Below are positions 7,648 to 12,360 of a DNA stretch of 64,000 bases, in pieces (position 1 is the first letter of the stretch; the number at the start of each line of letters is the position of its first letter). The position numbers were made by a program, and so were the translations under genes. Below the pieces are notes generated by a model that saw nothing but the letters and a program-made list of their open reading frames with translations, had not been told where the DNA came from and searched no databases. The stretch comes from Gaiellales bacterium (GTDB lineage: Bacteria > Actinomycetota > Thermoleophilia > Gaiellales > JAICJC01), in NCBI GenBank assembly GCA_036273515.1, contig DASUHM010000002.1, positions 126,748 through 190,747 of the forward strand, given 5' to 3'.

Positions 7648-7687
7648 ACGCCTTTCAGTGTATCGGCGCCCCTGTACGATCGCGGCC

Positions 7688-8245
7688 GTGGCCGCGCCGG
7701 TCCCGCTCCGCTACCCGGACCCGCCCCTGGCAGAGGGCGAGATCGGCCTGCGGTCGTGGCGGGAAGAGGATCTCGGCGTGATCGCGGCGCTCTGCCGCGA
7801 CCCCGACGTGGCCCGCTTCACCCGCGTGCCCGACCCCTACTCCGACGCCGACGCGCGGGCCTGGATCGACGGGCTGGCGGACAGGCTCGCGGAGGGCGAG
7901 GCGGTGCGGCTTGCGATCGTCGCGGGTGGAGGTGAGCCGGTCGGGAGCATCGGCCTTCGCATCGACCCGCTCGACCGCGACATCGCCGAGGCCGGCTACA
8001 TGGTCGCGCCGGGGGCGCGCGGCCGCGGCGTGGCCACGACGGCGCTTCGGCTGGCATCGCGCTGGGGGCTGCGCGACCTGGGGGTGGCCCGCGTCCAGCT
8101 CTCGACCCATGTCGACAACCCCGCCTCCCAGCGGGTCGCCGAGCGGGCGGGGTTCCGGCGCGAGGGCGTGCTGCGCTCGTGGGAGGAGCTGCGCGGGAGC
8201 CGTGTCGACCTGGTGATGTTCTCGCGCGTCGCCGCCGACCTGTGA
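7688..8245 (+). CDS. GNAT-family N-acetyltransferase (RimJ/RimL-like), first of a tandem pair
   Basis: 185 residues. The acetyl-CoA-binding motif A is [14 protein letters not shown] (R-G-R-G-V-A), preceded by IAEAGYMV and followed by [18 protein letters not shown], the pattern of ribosomal-protein-alanine/small-molecule GNAT enzymes. The GTG at 7688 is preceded by TACGAT and exactly 7 bases, fitting a leaderless transcript divergent from uvrB; an upstream GTG at 7658 would place the promoter inside the gene. It overlaps the next GNAT gene by four bases (GTGA). The substrate is unknown. Confidence 0.85.
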
Positions 8246-8787
8246 CCGGGCCGATCCCGCTCCCGCGGCTGCTGCACGACGGCCGCGCCGGGCTGCGGCC
8301 GTGGCGGGAGGGCGACGTGGCGGCGATCCTGGCCATGTCGCGCGATCCGGAGACGATCCGCTTCACGAGCGTGCCCGATCCATACGACGAGGACTCCGTG
8401 CGGATCTGGCTGGCGCTCCAACCGGCGCGGCTGCGGGCGGGCGACGGGGCGGCGTTCGCGGTGGTCGAGCCACCGGGCGAGGAGGCGCTCGGGGCGATCG
8501 GGGTGCGGGTGCTGCACGGGCGCGGGATCGCCGAGATCGGCTACCACATGGCGCCGCAGGCCCGCGGCCGCGGCCTGGCGACGGCGGCGCTTCGCCTGCT
8601 CTCGGACTGGTCGTTCCGCAAGCTCCCGGTCGCGCGCCTGCAGCTGACGACGCACCTCGACAATCCGGCCTCGCAGCGCGTGGCGGAGAAGGCGGGATAC
8701 ACCCGCGAGGCGGTGCTGCGCTCGTGGGCCGACCAGCGCGGGGAGCGGGTCGACCTGATCATGTACTCGCTGCTCCCCGGTGAATAA
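8242..8787 (+). CDS. GNAT-family N-acetyltransferase, second of a tandem pair
   Basis: 181 residues, clearly a paralogue of the preceding gene. Shared segments include LRPWREGD (versus LRSWREED), SVPDPY/RVPDPY, the motif-A loop APQARGRGLATAAL and [14 protein letters not shown]. The GTG start overlaps the upstream TGA, implying translational coupling and coordinated or heteromeric use. The TAA stop lies at the edge of the first of two REP-like palindromes that separate this gene from the convergent flavoprotein gene. Confidence 0.85.
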   Translation: MTGPIPLPRLLHDGRAGLRPWREGDVAAILAMSRDPETIRFTSVPDPYDEDSVRIWLALQPARLRAGDGAAFAVVEPPGEEALGAIGVRVLHGRGIAEIGYHMAPQARGRGLATAALRLLSDWSFRKLPVARLQLTTHLDNPASQRVAEKAGYTREAVLRSWADQRGERVDLIMYSLLPGE

Positions 8788-8815: not shown

Positions 8816-8848
8816 GTGAATAGCCGGTGCCTGGCACCGGTTATTCAC
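8816..8848. repeat. REP-like palindrome, GGTGCCTGGCACC type
   Basis: A second hairpin immediately follows the first: core GGTGCCTGGCACC flanked by GTGAATAGCC and GGTTATTCAC. It reaches into the stop codon of the convergent flavoprotein gene. Two different members of the same 13-base family stand side by side here. Confidence 0.8.
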
Positions 8849-10923
8849 ACGAGCGGGCGCTCGCGCATGTAGGGCAGCGGGCGGGACGGGTCGGGCGAAT
8901 CGATCTCGCGCGCGAGGCGGTGGCCGTCGAAGATCGCGTCGGCGATCAGCCGCGGCGCGACGCAGTCGCCGATCGCGTGCACCTGCTCGACGCCCGCGGC
9001 GGCGAGCGCGTCGGGGTCGTCCGCGAGCGCGCGGTGAAGGGCGTCGTCCGAACCCCGCTGCGTGACCATCACCACGCCGTCGCAGGCGATGCGGAACGGG
9101 TGGCCGAACTCGTCGGCGGCGTCGACGCCCTGCGGGTCGACCGCCGTCGCCGTCGCGGCGCGGTGCGCGCCGATGCCGAGGTCGTGCAGGCGCCGGCGCA
9201 GGCGCACGCCCTCGAGCGTTTGGTCGCAGTAGTGGGCGACGAGGTCGAAGCAGGTGAGCAGCTCCACCGCCCGGCCCTCGGCCCGCAGCACCTCCGCGAT
9301 CCCGGCGCCGGTGAAGTAGCCCTCGTAGTCGATCACGCAGACGCGTGAGCCCGGCGGCCGCAGCCCCTCCACCATGACCTGCTCCGGCGTCAGCACGTGG
9401 GCCAGCCCCTCCCCCGCGCCCGCGATCGACGCGCGGGTGATGCCGTTCATGCCGTCGGCGTTCCAGCGCGCGCCGGTGGCAACGATGGCGATGTCGGCGC
9501 CGTACTCGCACACGCCGGCGGCGTCGAGCCGCATGCCGGGCACGAACTGGAGGTTCGCAAGGCGCTCCATCTGCACGCGGCGGTAGTCGATCAGGCGCCC
9601 CCACTCCCCCAGGCCCGGCAGCCGCGTGACCCACTGCAGGCAGCCGCCGATGTCGTCGTCCGCGTCGACCAGGTGGACGAGCTCCATGCCGCGCTTCGCG
9701 AGCACGATCGCGCACTCCATCCCGGCCGGACCCGCTCCCACCACGAGTGCCGACTTCTCCGCATTCTTCGCCCGGTCGAACCGCTCCGGGTGCCAGCCGC
9801 GGCGGTGCTCCTCGCCGGCCGTCGCGTTCTGGGTGCAGCCGAGGTGGCGGCCCCAGATCGAGCGCGAGTAGCACGCGTTGCAGCCGATGCACTCGCGCAC
9901 CTCGTCGTAGCGGCCCTCCTCGATCTTGCGGGGCAGGAACGGGTCGGAGATCGACGGCCGCGCGGCCCCGATCAGGTCGACCGTGCCGCCGCGGACGATC
10001 TCCGCCATCCGGTCGGGGTCGGTGAACCGCCCAACCACCACGATCGGCTTGTCCGTCGCCTGGCGGGCCTGGCCCGACCACTCCAGCTGGTAGCCCTGCT
10101 CGAAGAAGCGCGACGGTCCGCTGTCGACCCGCTGCCATCCCGACAGCGCGCCGATTGTCACATCCCACAGGTCGACCATCGGGTCGGCCCGGCGGATGAA
10201 CTCGAGCCCCTCGGCCAGCTCGACACCCGATCCCTCCAGCGTGTCGGCCGCAATCCGAACGGCGATCGCGCAGTCGCCGCCGACGGCGTCGCGGACGAGC
10301 TCGATCGCCTCCAGCCAGAACCGCGACCGGTTCTCGAACGAGCCGCCGTAGCGGTCGGTGCGGCGGTTGTAGACGGGCGAGAGAAACTGCGTCGGCAGGT
10401 AGGTATGCGAGCCGTACACGTAGACGATGTCGAAGCCGGAGTCGCGCGCCCGCAGGGCGGCGGCCACCCACTCCTCCTGCACGCGGCGGATGTCGGCCGC
10501 CGTCATCACCCGCGGGACCGTGATCCCGTCGAAGTCGCTCGAGAGCTGCGACGGGGCGATCGGCGGCAGCCGCGACTCGCGCGTCTCGGCGTACAGGCCG
10601 CCGTGCCAAAGCTCGACGCCGGCGAGCGCCCCGTGGCGGTGTGCCTCCTCGGTCATGAGCCGCAGCGCCCGCGCGTCCTCGTCGTCCCACAGCCGCGCCG
10701 ACACGTAGGGCGACTCGTCGGTCTCGGCGCTGATCGAGCAGTACTCGGTGCACACCGCCGCCCAGCCGCCCTCGGCCTTCATCCCCCGGAAGGCGGCCTG
10801 CGTCCACGGCTTCTCGACCCCGAACCCGGTGCAGTGCGGCACCTGGTAGAAGCGGTTTCGGAGCGTCTTCGGCCCGATCTGCACGGGCTCGAAGAGGATG
10901 TCGTGGCGGGGCAGCCGGGCCAT
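8845..10923 (-). CDS. Trimethylamine-dehydrogenase-family flavoprotein (amine dehydrogenase)
   Basis: 692 residues, matching trimethylamine/dimethylamine/histamine dehydrogenases along the whole length. An old-yellow-enzyme barrel carries Cys31 in VPHCTGFG, the equivalent of the Cys that binds FMN covalently in trimethylamine dehydrogenase, and Tyr61 in TEYCSI. The 4Fe-4S cluster ligands are CIGCNAC followed by CTQNATAGEE. A nucleotide-binding domain starts at VVGAGPAGMECA. A Trp matches the second aromatic-bowl residue (GWQRVDSGPSRF), but the third bowl Trp after the cluster is Ser here (CYSRS), so the substrate may not be trimethylamine. The ATG directly abuts the TAG of the MttB-family gene, so they form an operon. 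Electrons would pass to an electron-transfer flavoprotein not encoded here. Confidence 0.88.
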   Translation of the reverse strand: MARLPRHDILFEPVQIGPKTLRNRFYQVPHCTGFGVEKPWTQAAFRGMKAEGGWAAVCTEYCSISAETDESPYVSARLWDDEDARALRLMTEEAHRHGALAGVELWHGGLYAETRESRLPPIAPSQLSSDFDGITVPRVMTAADIRRVQEEWVAAALRARDSGFDIVYVYGSHTYLPTQFLSPVYNRRTDRYGGSFENRSRFWLEAIELVRDAVGGDCAIAVRIAADTLEGSGVELAEGLEFIRRADPMVDLWDVTIGALSGWQRVDSGPSRFFEQGYQLEWSGQARQATDKPIVVVGRFTDPDRMAEIVRGGTVDLIGAARPSISDPFLPRKIEEGRYDEVRECIGCNACYSRSIWGRHLGCTQNATAGEEHRRGWHPERFDRAKNAEKSALVVGAGPAGMECAIVLAKRGMELVHLVDADDDIGGCLQWVTRLPGLGEWGRLIDYRRVQMERLANLQFVPGMRLDAAGVCEYGADIAIVATGARWNADGMNGITRASIAGAGEGLAHVLTPEQVMVEGLRPPGSRVCVIDYEGYFTGAGIAEVLRAEGRAVELLTCFDLVAHYCDQTLEGVRLRRRLHDLGIGAHRAATATAVDPQGVDAADEFGHPFRIACDGVVMVTQRGSDDALHRALADDPDALAAAGVEQVHAIGDCVAPRLIADAIFDGHRLAREIDSPDPSRPLPYMRERPLV

Positions 10924-12360
10924 CTACGCGTACTCGGCGTCGAGCTCGCCCGCGCGCCGGTCGACGTGCTCGCGCAGCTCCTCGTCGAGGGCGGAGTCGA
11001 TGCCCGGGTCCTCCCACGCCTCGAGCAGCCGCCTCCACTCGGCCGTCGCGGCCCGGTCCGTCGTGATCGAGCCCTGCTTCTCCCAGGTCACGTACGACTG
11101 CGAGCGGAAGAGCGGGCTCATGAACGTCCAGTCGCGGAAGTGCGCCAGCGTGTGATCGGCGGCGAGGAACATGCCGCCCGGCCCCTCCCCGCGGATCGCG
11201 TCGAGCGCGAACTCCTCCTCCCCGAGCGTCACCCCCTGCTCCAGCACCTCGAACATACGTAAGACCTCGAGGTCGAGGGCGAGCTTCTCGTAGGAGGCGG
11301 TCAGCCCGCCCTCGAGCCAGCCGGCGGCGTGCAGGACGAAGTCGGCCGGGGCGAGCATGGTCGCCCAGAGCGTGTTCATCGTCTCGGCGGCCGCCTGGGC
11401 GTCGAGCGCGTTCGACGAGCACAGCCCGCCGCCGCCGCGATAGGGCAGGTTGTAGCGGCGCGCCAGCTGGCCCCCCGCAAGCGTGCCGACCACCGATTCC
11501 GGGGTGCCGAACGCGGGGCCGCCGGTGCGCATGTCGACGGCGGTGAAGAACGAGCCGAAGAGGGCCGGCGCACCGCGCCGGATCAGCTGCACCAGGGCGA
11601 CACCCGTCAGCGCCTCGGCCACCTGGAGCGCGAGCCCGCCGGCGACGCTCACCGGGGCGGTCGCGCCCGCCAGCAGGAACGGCGTCACGATCACCGGCTG
11701 GGCAGCCCGGGCCCACTCGACCAGCGCGTCCACCATCAGGAAGTCCCAGACGAGCGGGCTGTTCGGGTTGACGACGCCCATGATGGCGGGCGTGCGCTCG
11801 ATCCGGTCGCGGCCGCCGCAGGCGATCGCGGCCAGGTCGACGGCGTCGCGCGCCTTGGGCCCGGACGTGCCGTAACAGACGTAGGGCTTGTCCGACCAGC
11901 GCAGGATCGAGTAGTCCATCTCGAGGTGGCGGCTGTGCTCGCTGAGGTCGTTGGCCTCGACCGTGCCGCTCTGCAGGCAGGTCATGAGCTCGGCCGAGTG
12001 GGCCATCTTCACCAGCTCGACGTGGTCGGCGATGCCACCGTCGCGGCGGCCGCGCTCGAGGTCGGAGCAGAACGGCGAGCCGCCGACCGGCGCCAGCACG
12101 GGCCTGGCCCCGCCGATGGTGACGGCGCGGTCGGGGTTGCGGGGCTCGAGCGTGAACGAGGCCGGCGCCGAAGCGACCATCTCCATCACGAACTCGCGGT
12201 CCCAGCGCACCCGCTCGCCGTCGACGTCCTGGCCGCTCGCCCGCAGGAGGGCGAGCGCCTCCTCGTGGCGGACGTCGGTGCCGATCTCCTCGATGATCGT
12301 CATCGCCCGGTCATGCACGGCCTCGACGTCGTCGGGCGCAAGGATCGAGATCGCCTCCAC
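10924..12360 (-). CDS. MttB-family (trimethylamine:corrinoid-like) methyltransferase, non-pyrrolysine type
   Basis: 478 residues from the GTG at 12360 to the TAG touching the dehydrogenase ATG. Family features are the N-terminal RAMTIIEEIG helix, FTLEPRNPDR, a TIM-barrel core with GAPALFGSFF, and LPYRGGGGLCSSNALDAQAA near the region that holds pyrrolysine in archaeal MttB. There is no in-frame amber codon, so it belongs to the large non-pyrrolysine branch, whose studied members demethylate glycine betaine, proline betaine or carnitine. No corrinoid protein is encoded nearby, so the methyl acceptor is unknown. TACAGT lies 7 bases before the GTG, the leaderless layout. Reading continues open further upstream, but that segment has no family match. 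Confidence 0.85.
   Translation of the reverse strand: MEAISILAPDDVEAVHDRAMTIIEEIGTDVRHEEALALLRASGQDVDGERVRWDREFVMEMVASAPASFTLEPRNPDRAVTIGGARPVLAPVGGSPFCSDLERGRRDGGIADHVELVKMAHSAELMTCLQSGTVEANDLSEHSRHLEMDYSILRWSDKPYVCYGTSGPKARDAVDLAAIACGGRDRIERTPAIMGVVNPNSPLVWDFLMVDALVEWARAAQPVIVTPFLLAGATAPVSVAGGLALQVAEALTGVALVQLIRRGAPALFGSFFTAVDMRTGGPAFGTPESVVGTLAGGQLARRYNLPYRGGGGLCSSNALDAQAAAETMNTLWATMLAPADFVLHAAGWLEGGLTASYEKLALDLEVLRMFEVLEQGVTLGEEEFALDAIRGEGPGGMFLAADHTLAHFRDWTFMSPLFRSQSYVTWEKQGSITTDRAATAEWRRLLEAWEDPGIDSALDEELREHVDRRAGELDAEYA

Follow-up and report, generated by a model that had tools for sequence, protein, structure and literature searches.

A candidate operon for stepwise N-demethylation joins a distinct clade of the MttB superfamily to a trimethylamine dehydrogenase-like enzyme in Thermoleophilia

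What role might a corrinoid-dependent methyltransferase play when its gene abuts that of a flavin-dependent amine dehydrogenase and no gene for a corrinoid protein lies nearby? The question is raised by two minus-strand genes in a 64,000-nucleotide stretch (hereafter the window) from a Gaiellales bacterium of the class Thermoleophilia (Actinomycetota; GenBank assembly GCA_036273515.1, contig DASUHM010000002.1, positions 126,748 to 190,747 of the forward strand): an mttB-like gene (window positions 10924..12360; 478 residues) and a gene of the trimethylamine dehydrogenase (TMADH) family, of the 6-S-Cys-FMN/4Fe-4S/ADP-binding type (8845..10923; 692 residues). An initial annotation had proposed that the two act together in a two-step path from a betaine-like compound and that, with the usual corrinoid protein gene missing, a new acceptor or new chemistry might be involved. 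We find it likely that the pair encodes a corrinoid-dependent quaternary-amine demethylase coupled to a tertiary-amine dehydrogenase linked to electron transfer flavoprotein (ETF), acting in sequential N-demethylation, with a corrinoid partner of known type encoded elsewhere in the genome.

The pairing of an MttB-family gene with a TMADH-like gene was confirmed at this locus, as was the contact between the stop of one and the start of the other. Both frames are full length and without interruption. That of mttB begins with GTG at 12360, a start chosen from where homologues begin (the frame is open upstream to 12564), and ends with TAG at 10926-10924, followed immediately by the dehydrogenase ATG at 10923; the junction (10921..10926), read from the sequence, is thus ...GCG TAG ATG GCC.... 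An equally tight junction occurs in genome G283 of the same class, and in G181 the two genes overlap.

Assignment of both proteins to these families was upheld by Pfam and by solved relatives, and both were placed phylogenetically. The MttB protein matches Pfam MTTB (PF06253) at 555 bits (E=1e-166; gathering score 25), its closest solved relatives are Sinorhizobium meliloti 4yyc and Desulfitobacterium hafniense MtgB, and its AlphaFold model (predicted local distance difference test score 90.7) superposes on the latter (2qne/9yce) with a Z of 55 over 468 residues. With the TIM-barrel fold of MttB/MtgB and a full-length PF06253 match, it is a pyrrolysine-free member of the MttB superfamily (PF06253/COG5598). 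A pyrrolysine-containing trimethylamine (TMA) methyltransferase, or MttB in the strict sense, was ruled out by the lack of any in-frame TAG and by a score of 276 bits, against a cut-off of 525, with the NCBIfam TMA-pyrrolysine equivalog TIGR02369. In a tree of 113 MttB sequences the protein falls within a 15-member clade (support by SH-like approximate likelihood ratio test, SH-aLRT, 100), all assigned members of which are Actinomycetota and in which L092 branches first.

This clade retains the catalytic framework of its relatives and departs from them in the predicted substrate pocket. Docking of MtgB led to the proposal of N199, R309, H345 and Y94 (D. hafniense numbering) as active-site residues, with Tyr94 forming part of a proposed betaine cage (PMC6855144). 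Equivalents of N199, R309 and H345 are conserved in all 15 clade members, ruling out the degraded active site that the initial annotation had named as fatal to its proposal. At the Tyr94 position, glycine occurs in 15/15 clade members, as opposed to tyrosine in 95 of the 98 other MttB sequences. Further clade-specific residues (Gln130, Gly132, Ala136, Tyr163 and Gly164, counted with the GTG at 12360 as codon 1) fall in or near strand-end motifs of the kind that carry active-site residues, and for this reason the pocket has probably been rewritten rather than decayed.

The corrinoid protein gene absent from the 64-kb window was found elsewhere in the assembly (4.07 Mb, 97% complete). A cluster on contig C25 encodes a B12-binding MtgC truncated at the end of the contig, a methylenetetrahydrofolate reductase (MTHFR) C-terminal protein, MetF, MtgD (a pterin-binding methyltransferase with a Pterin_bind domain), a RACo-type activator and DUF1638; domain searches thus located the corrinoid protein, the tetrahydrofolate (THF) methyltransferase and the reductive activator that a system of the MtgBCD type requires. 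An MtgE-like homocysteine S-methyltransferase is encoded on contig C35, and a full-length MetH-like frame occurs on C8. Standalone MtgC was also present in 15/15 searched genomes bearing the window MttB clade (G303 and G305 with only a short, 79%-identical fragment). The search that the initial annotation had advised for corrinoid-binding and THF-methyltransferase genes consequently overturns its own premise of a missing corrinoid protein, and the suggestion of a new acceptor or chemistry falls with it: given that the genome supplies a B12 carrier protein from another locus, the chemistry of the pair looks known. In L092, whose MttB is 61% identical, the gene order is mtgC-mtgD-RACo-DUF1638-mttB, and since mttB shares this operon, the clade appears to use the usual corrinoid acceptor, at least there. 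Ruegeria pomeroyi and its aerobic MtgBCD system provide a precedent for dispersed genes: mtgB genes there are separated from mtgC and mtgD, a role in oxidising methyl-THF has been proposed for MetF2, and RamA and DUF1638 occur alongside (PMC12478193). A lone mttB gene, in short, need not lack a corrinoid partner, since this can be supplied in trans. In passing, a small protein of the PF13769 family ("Virulence_fact") was seen to recur beside mtgC, mttB or mtgE (L086, 1026-1265; L088, 1163-1465; and many mtgC loci, including L099, L136 and L147); it probably belongs to the corrinoid methyltransferase system, and its Pfam name is misleading.

The availability of this machinery invites a competing explanation, which we regard as improbable although the best of the alternatives, namely that the pair forms a module leading from glycine betaine through dimethylglycine to sarcosine, in which the window MttB would be the local MtgB and its partner a dimethylglycine demethylase. 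Aerobic MtgB proteins of the MttB family do demethylate glycine betaine, often with genes for later demethylation nearby (PMC12478193), and the full MtgCD/MetF/RACo set is present in this genome; yet the predicted betaine-cage tyrosine, nearly universal among other MttB proteins, is replaced throughout the window clade. The genome moreover carries at least two ordinary MtgB-type MttB proteins (on contigs C23 and C62) that lie outside this clade, among actinobacterial MttBs many of which are encoded beside mtgC, and a separate cluster on contig C90 (L188, 8002-14353), in which EtfB and EtfA come after a DAO-GcvT fusion of the dimethylglycine/sarcosine dehydrogenase type, looks like a dimethylglycine/sarcosine route in its own right. 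At least eight GCV_T matches were found in the genome, and judged by its gene content the organism looks specialised in N-methyl compounds. As a separate observation on its mttB complement, contigs C62 (L016), C35 (L017) and C88 (L018) each end inside an mttB gene; since the C35 and C88 ends are identical over 141 bases and both overlap C62 by 63 bases, two further copies, near-identical at the contig ends, probably broke the assembly, giving at least four mttB genes in this genome.

The dehydrogenase partner shows a comparable combination of retained chemistry and altered pocket. It matches Pfam Oxidored_FMN (286 bits) together with Pyr_redox domains, and its best solved relative is TMADH (1djn, 735 bits), followed by histamine dehydrogenase (515 bits). 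In the tree it belongs to a six-member clade (SH-aLRT 98-99) that keeps C30 (flavin), Y60, S74, W105, Y169, H172, R222, D267 and the four cysteine ligands of the Fe-S cluster; the flavin-bearing Cys30, the catalytic Tyr/His/Asp and the four ligands place it in the TMADH family (6-S-Cys-FMN, 4Fe-4S). The aromatic bowl of TMADH in the strict sense (Tyr60/Trp264/Trp355) is nevertheless incomplete: Trp355 is replaced by Ser or Ala in 6/6 members, and position 264 is Trp only in the window and G283, with another residue in the remaining four. In TMADH, Trp264 and Trp355, with Tyr60, form the bowl that holds TMA. A catalytic triad and an "aromatic bowl" have likewise been described in histamine dehydrogenase (PMC10180351), and the TMADH family is known to oxidise bulky amines, such as 6-hydroxypseudooxynicotine (PMC5500553). 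The partner clade is further marked by the motif CYSRxxxGxHxGC, similar versions of which occur in L217 (genome G168) and L209 (the L091 genome), both genomes that carry the MttB clade. The best homologue on S. meliloti pSymA is 43% identical and groups with histamine dehydrogenase.

These features bear directly on a second alternative, marginally less probable than the glycine betaine module, by which the MttB protein would act on tetramethylammonium or choline to yield TMA (or dimethylethanolamine) and its partner would be a true trimethylamine (or dimethylamine) dehydrogenase. Closeness in sequence to TMADH and the retention of Y60, S74 and W105 are what would be expected of such an enzyme, but the bowl that holds TMA is broken across the partner clade, and TMADHs with full signatures are encoded by other Thermoleophilia genomes (L067, L069-L071 and L073). 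Distinct from all of these is a TMADH-family group (L211-L215 and L218; SH-aLRT 100) found in MttB-clade genomes outside Thermoleophilia, in which the flavin-bearing Cys30 is replaced by Ala and CIGC by CTGS, with loss of one Fe-S ligand; these homologues may be without covalent flavin or cluster. At L211, L212 and L213 the odd homologue has beside it a gene for a small B12-binding protein that looks like the cobalamin subunit of methylmalonyl-CoA mutase, possibly by chance, a succinyl-CoA-synthetase-like gene being also near.

To what extent the two genes travel together was assessed in a survey of 299 genomes of the class, taking as a close MttB orthologue one with about 65% identity or more (the next best being 48%). 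Such an orthologue occurred in seven genomes, in five of which (the window genome, G283, G213, G150 and G181) a TMADH-like gene directly follows mttB, in four different genomic contexts. Flanking genes are uvrB and GNAT acetyltransferases in the window and G283; an MFS transporter and ribonuclease-D-like genes (the latter label read from sequence) in G213; a PF13769 protein and a homocysteine methyltransferase, following the pair, in G150; and a dipeptide-type SBP_bac_5 transporter, an alanine racemase (again labelled from sequence) and a GntR regulator in G181. Outside this group, no TMADH homologue lay beside MttB in 23 class loci, nor in 79 of the 80 loci drawn from named records, the remaining one being L090, the contig of G283 itself. 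The six partner-clade proteins found all come from genomes that also carry the MttB clade (6/6), a count in which G168 is scored as partner-less although its paralogue L217 has a partner-like motif outside the clade. Fisher tests on co-occurrence were extreme and overstate significance, the genomes being related. Conservation of the pair across several related genomes whose flanking genes differ shows that its arrangement is not a matter of chance. Random assortment of orthologous pairs, the other outcome that the initial annotation held would undo its case, is accordingly rejected within Thermoleophilia, where adjacency in five of seven genomes and four contexts backs its view that the genes act together; outside the class the pairing is absent. 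It is very improbable that the genes have unrelated substrates and are merely co-regulated, for example in general N-methyl scavenging. In favour of this reading, TMADH paralogues are common in these genomes and the MttB clade lacks an adjacent partner in other Actinomycetota; against it, the two genes stay together in four contexts, the partner clade was found in MttB-clade genomes only, and look-alike partner motifs recur in G168 and the L091 genome.

The surroundings of the pair offer little further guidance. No convincing clue to the substrate came from neighbouring genes, namely the SBP_bac_5 transporter in G181, the MFS transporter in G213 and nothing in the window. Two adjacent, overlapping GNAT acetyltransferase genes lie downstream of the pair on the plus strand (7658-8787); they are retained in G283 and are not beside the pair in the other pair-bearing genomes. 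Otherwise the window carries mainly housekeeping genes (uvrA, uvrB, coaE, rpsA, polA and others, named from their sequences), plus one tRNA.

We thus return to sequential demethylation, for which the two-step path of the initial annotation stands as the most economical account. The locus would constitute a short operon with which an aerobic soil bacterium removes methyl groups stepwise from the nitrogen of a quaternary ammonium compound. In a first step, suggested by family and active site, MttB would demethylate the quaternary amine once, with the cob(I)alamin of MtgC, encoded in trans, as acceptor; MtgD would pass the methyl group from MtgC to THF, MetF would oxidise it to methylene-THF, and RACo, with DUF1638, would re-reduce the corrinoid. 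In a second step the TMADH-like enzyme would oxidise the tertiary amine product to a secondary amine and formaldehyde, its electrons presumably passing from flavin mononucleotide through the 4Fe-4S cluster to ETF. EtfBA genes lie beside mttB in G015; Tyr442 is not conserved in the partner clade. A TMADH-family member of Azoarcus, clustered with an aminomethyltransferase, an Fe-S protein and EtfBA, is consistent with ETF-coupled oxidative demethylation. Because pocket residues are altered in both enzymes, the quaternary amine is probably not glycine betaine, nor the tertiary one TMA.

Several observations weigh against this scheme. The genome has ETF gene pairs, none of them beside the window pair; in G015 both genes are present and unlinked, mttB there adjoining EtfBA, a PF13769 protein and a homocysteine methyltransferase; G168 has the MttB protein, with dehydrogenases elsewhere in its genome; and outside Thermoleophilia the mttB genes of the clade lack a neighbouring dehydrogenase gene, making the coupling lineage-specific. 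The roles given here to Y94 and to Trp264/Trp355 are taken from docking and related enzymes.

What is new here is modest: a distinct MttB clade with a changed pocket, paired with an altered TMADH-like partner, an arrangement of which no description was found in the open-access literature. More tentatively, and with rather less than even confidence, we suggest that the clade could act on a substrate class new to the MttB superfamily: it would be a corrinoid demethylase of some bulkier quaternary amine (such as a plant or soil betaine), coupled by operon to an ETF-linked dehydrogenase with a pocket that widened alongside its own. If so, aerobic soil Actinomycetota would gain a hybrid corrinoid and oxidative route of demethylation not described before. 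Corrinoid amine demethylation was long held to be anaerobic, and it is only recently that marine bacteria were shown to use the aerobic MtgBCD route; a separate MttB clade joined to an oxidative demethylase in soil Thermoleophilia points to a soil quaternary amine with no known breakdown route, and the specificity residues offer a direct test.

Comparison with characterized systems delineates these distinctions. The window MttB shares with D. hafniense MtgB (2qne, 9yce) and S. meliloti MttB (4yyc) its fold (Z 55 and 53), 38-42% identity and the Asn/Arg/His triplet, and differs in the glycine at Tyr94 and the five new clade-specific residues; with the pyrrolysine TMA methyltransferase MttB of Methanosarcina barkeri it shares superfamily and fold (Z 48), at about 24% identity, without the pyrrolysine codon and below the equivalog cut-off. 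The partner resembles TMADH of Methylophilus methylotrophus W3A1 (1djn) over its full length, in Cys30, Tyr169/His172/Asp267, the 4Fe-4S ligands and Tyr60/Ser74/Trp105, and its clade departs from it in Trp355 (Ser/Ala), the variable Trp264, Tyr442 (Arg/His) and the CYSRxxxGxHxGC motif. Histamine dehydrogenase (3k30, 6de6) and 6-hydroxypseudooxynicotine dehydrogenase (Pno) have the same cofactor set and show that the fold takes bulkier amines, but histamine dehydrogenase forms another clade (support 99-100), lacks Tyr60/Ser74/Trp105 and has Asp at the 355 position. A close parallel in gene content is the MtgBCD(E), or split methionine synthase, system of R. pomeroyi (PMC12478193), which likewise combines an MttB-family enzyme with MtgC encoded in trans, MtgD, an additional MetF, an activator of the RamA/RACo type, DUF1638 and the homocysteine methyltransferase MtgE; the window genome differs in also keeping a full-length MetH-like gene, and its MttB in occupying a separate clade, with a changed pocket and an operon shared with a TMADH-family gene.

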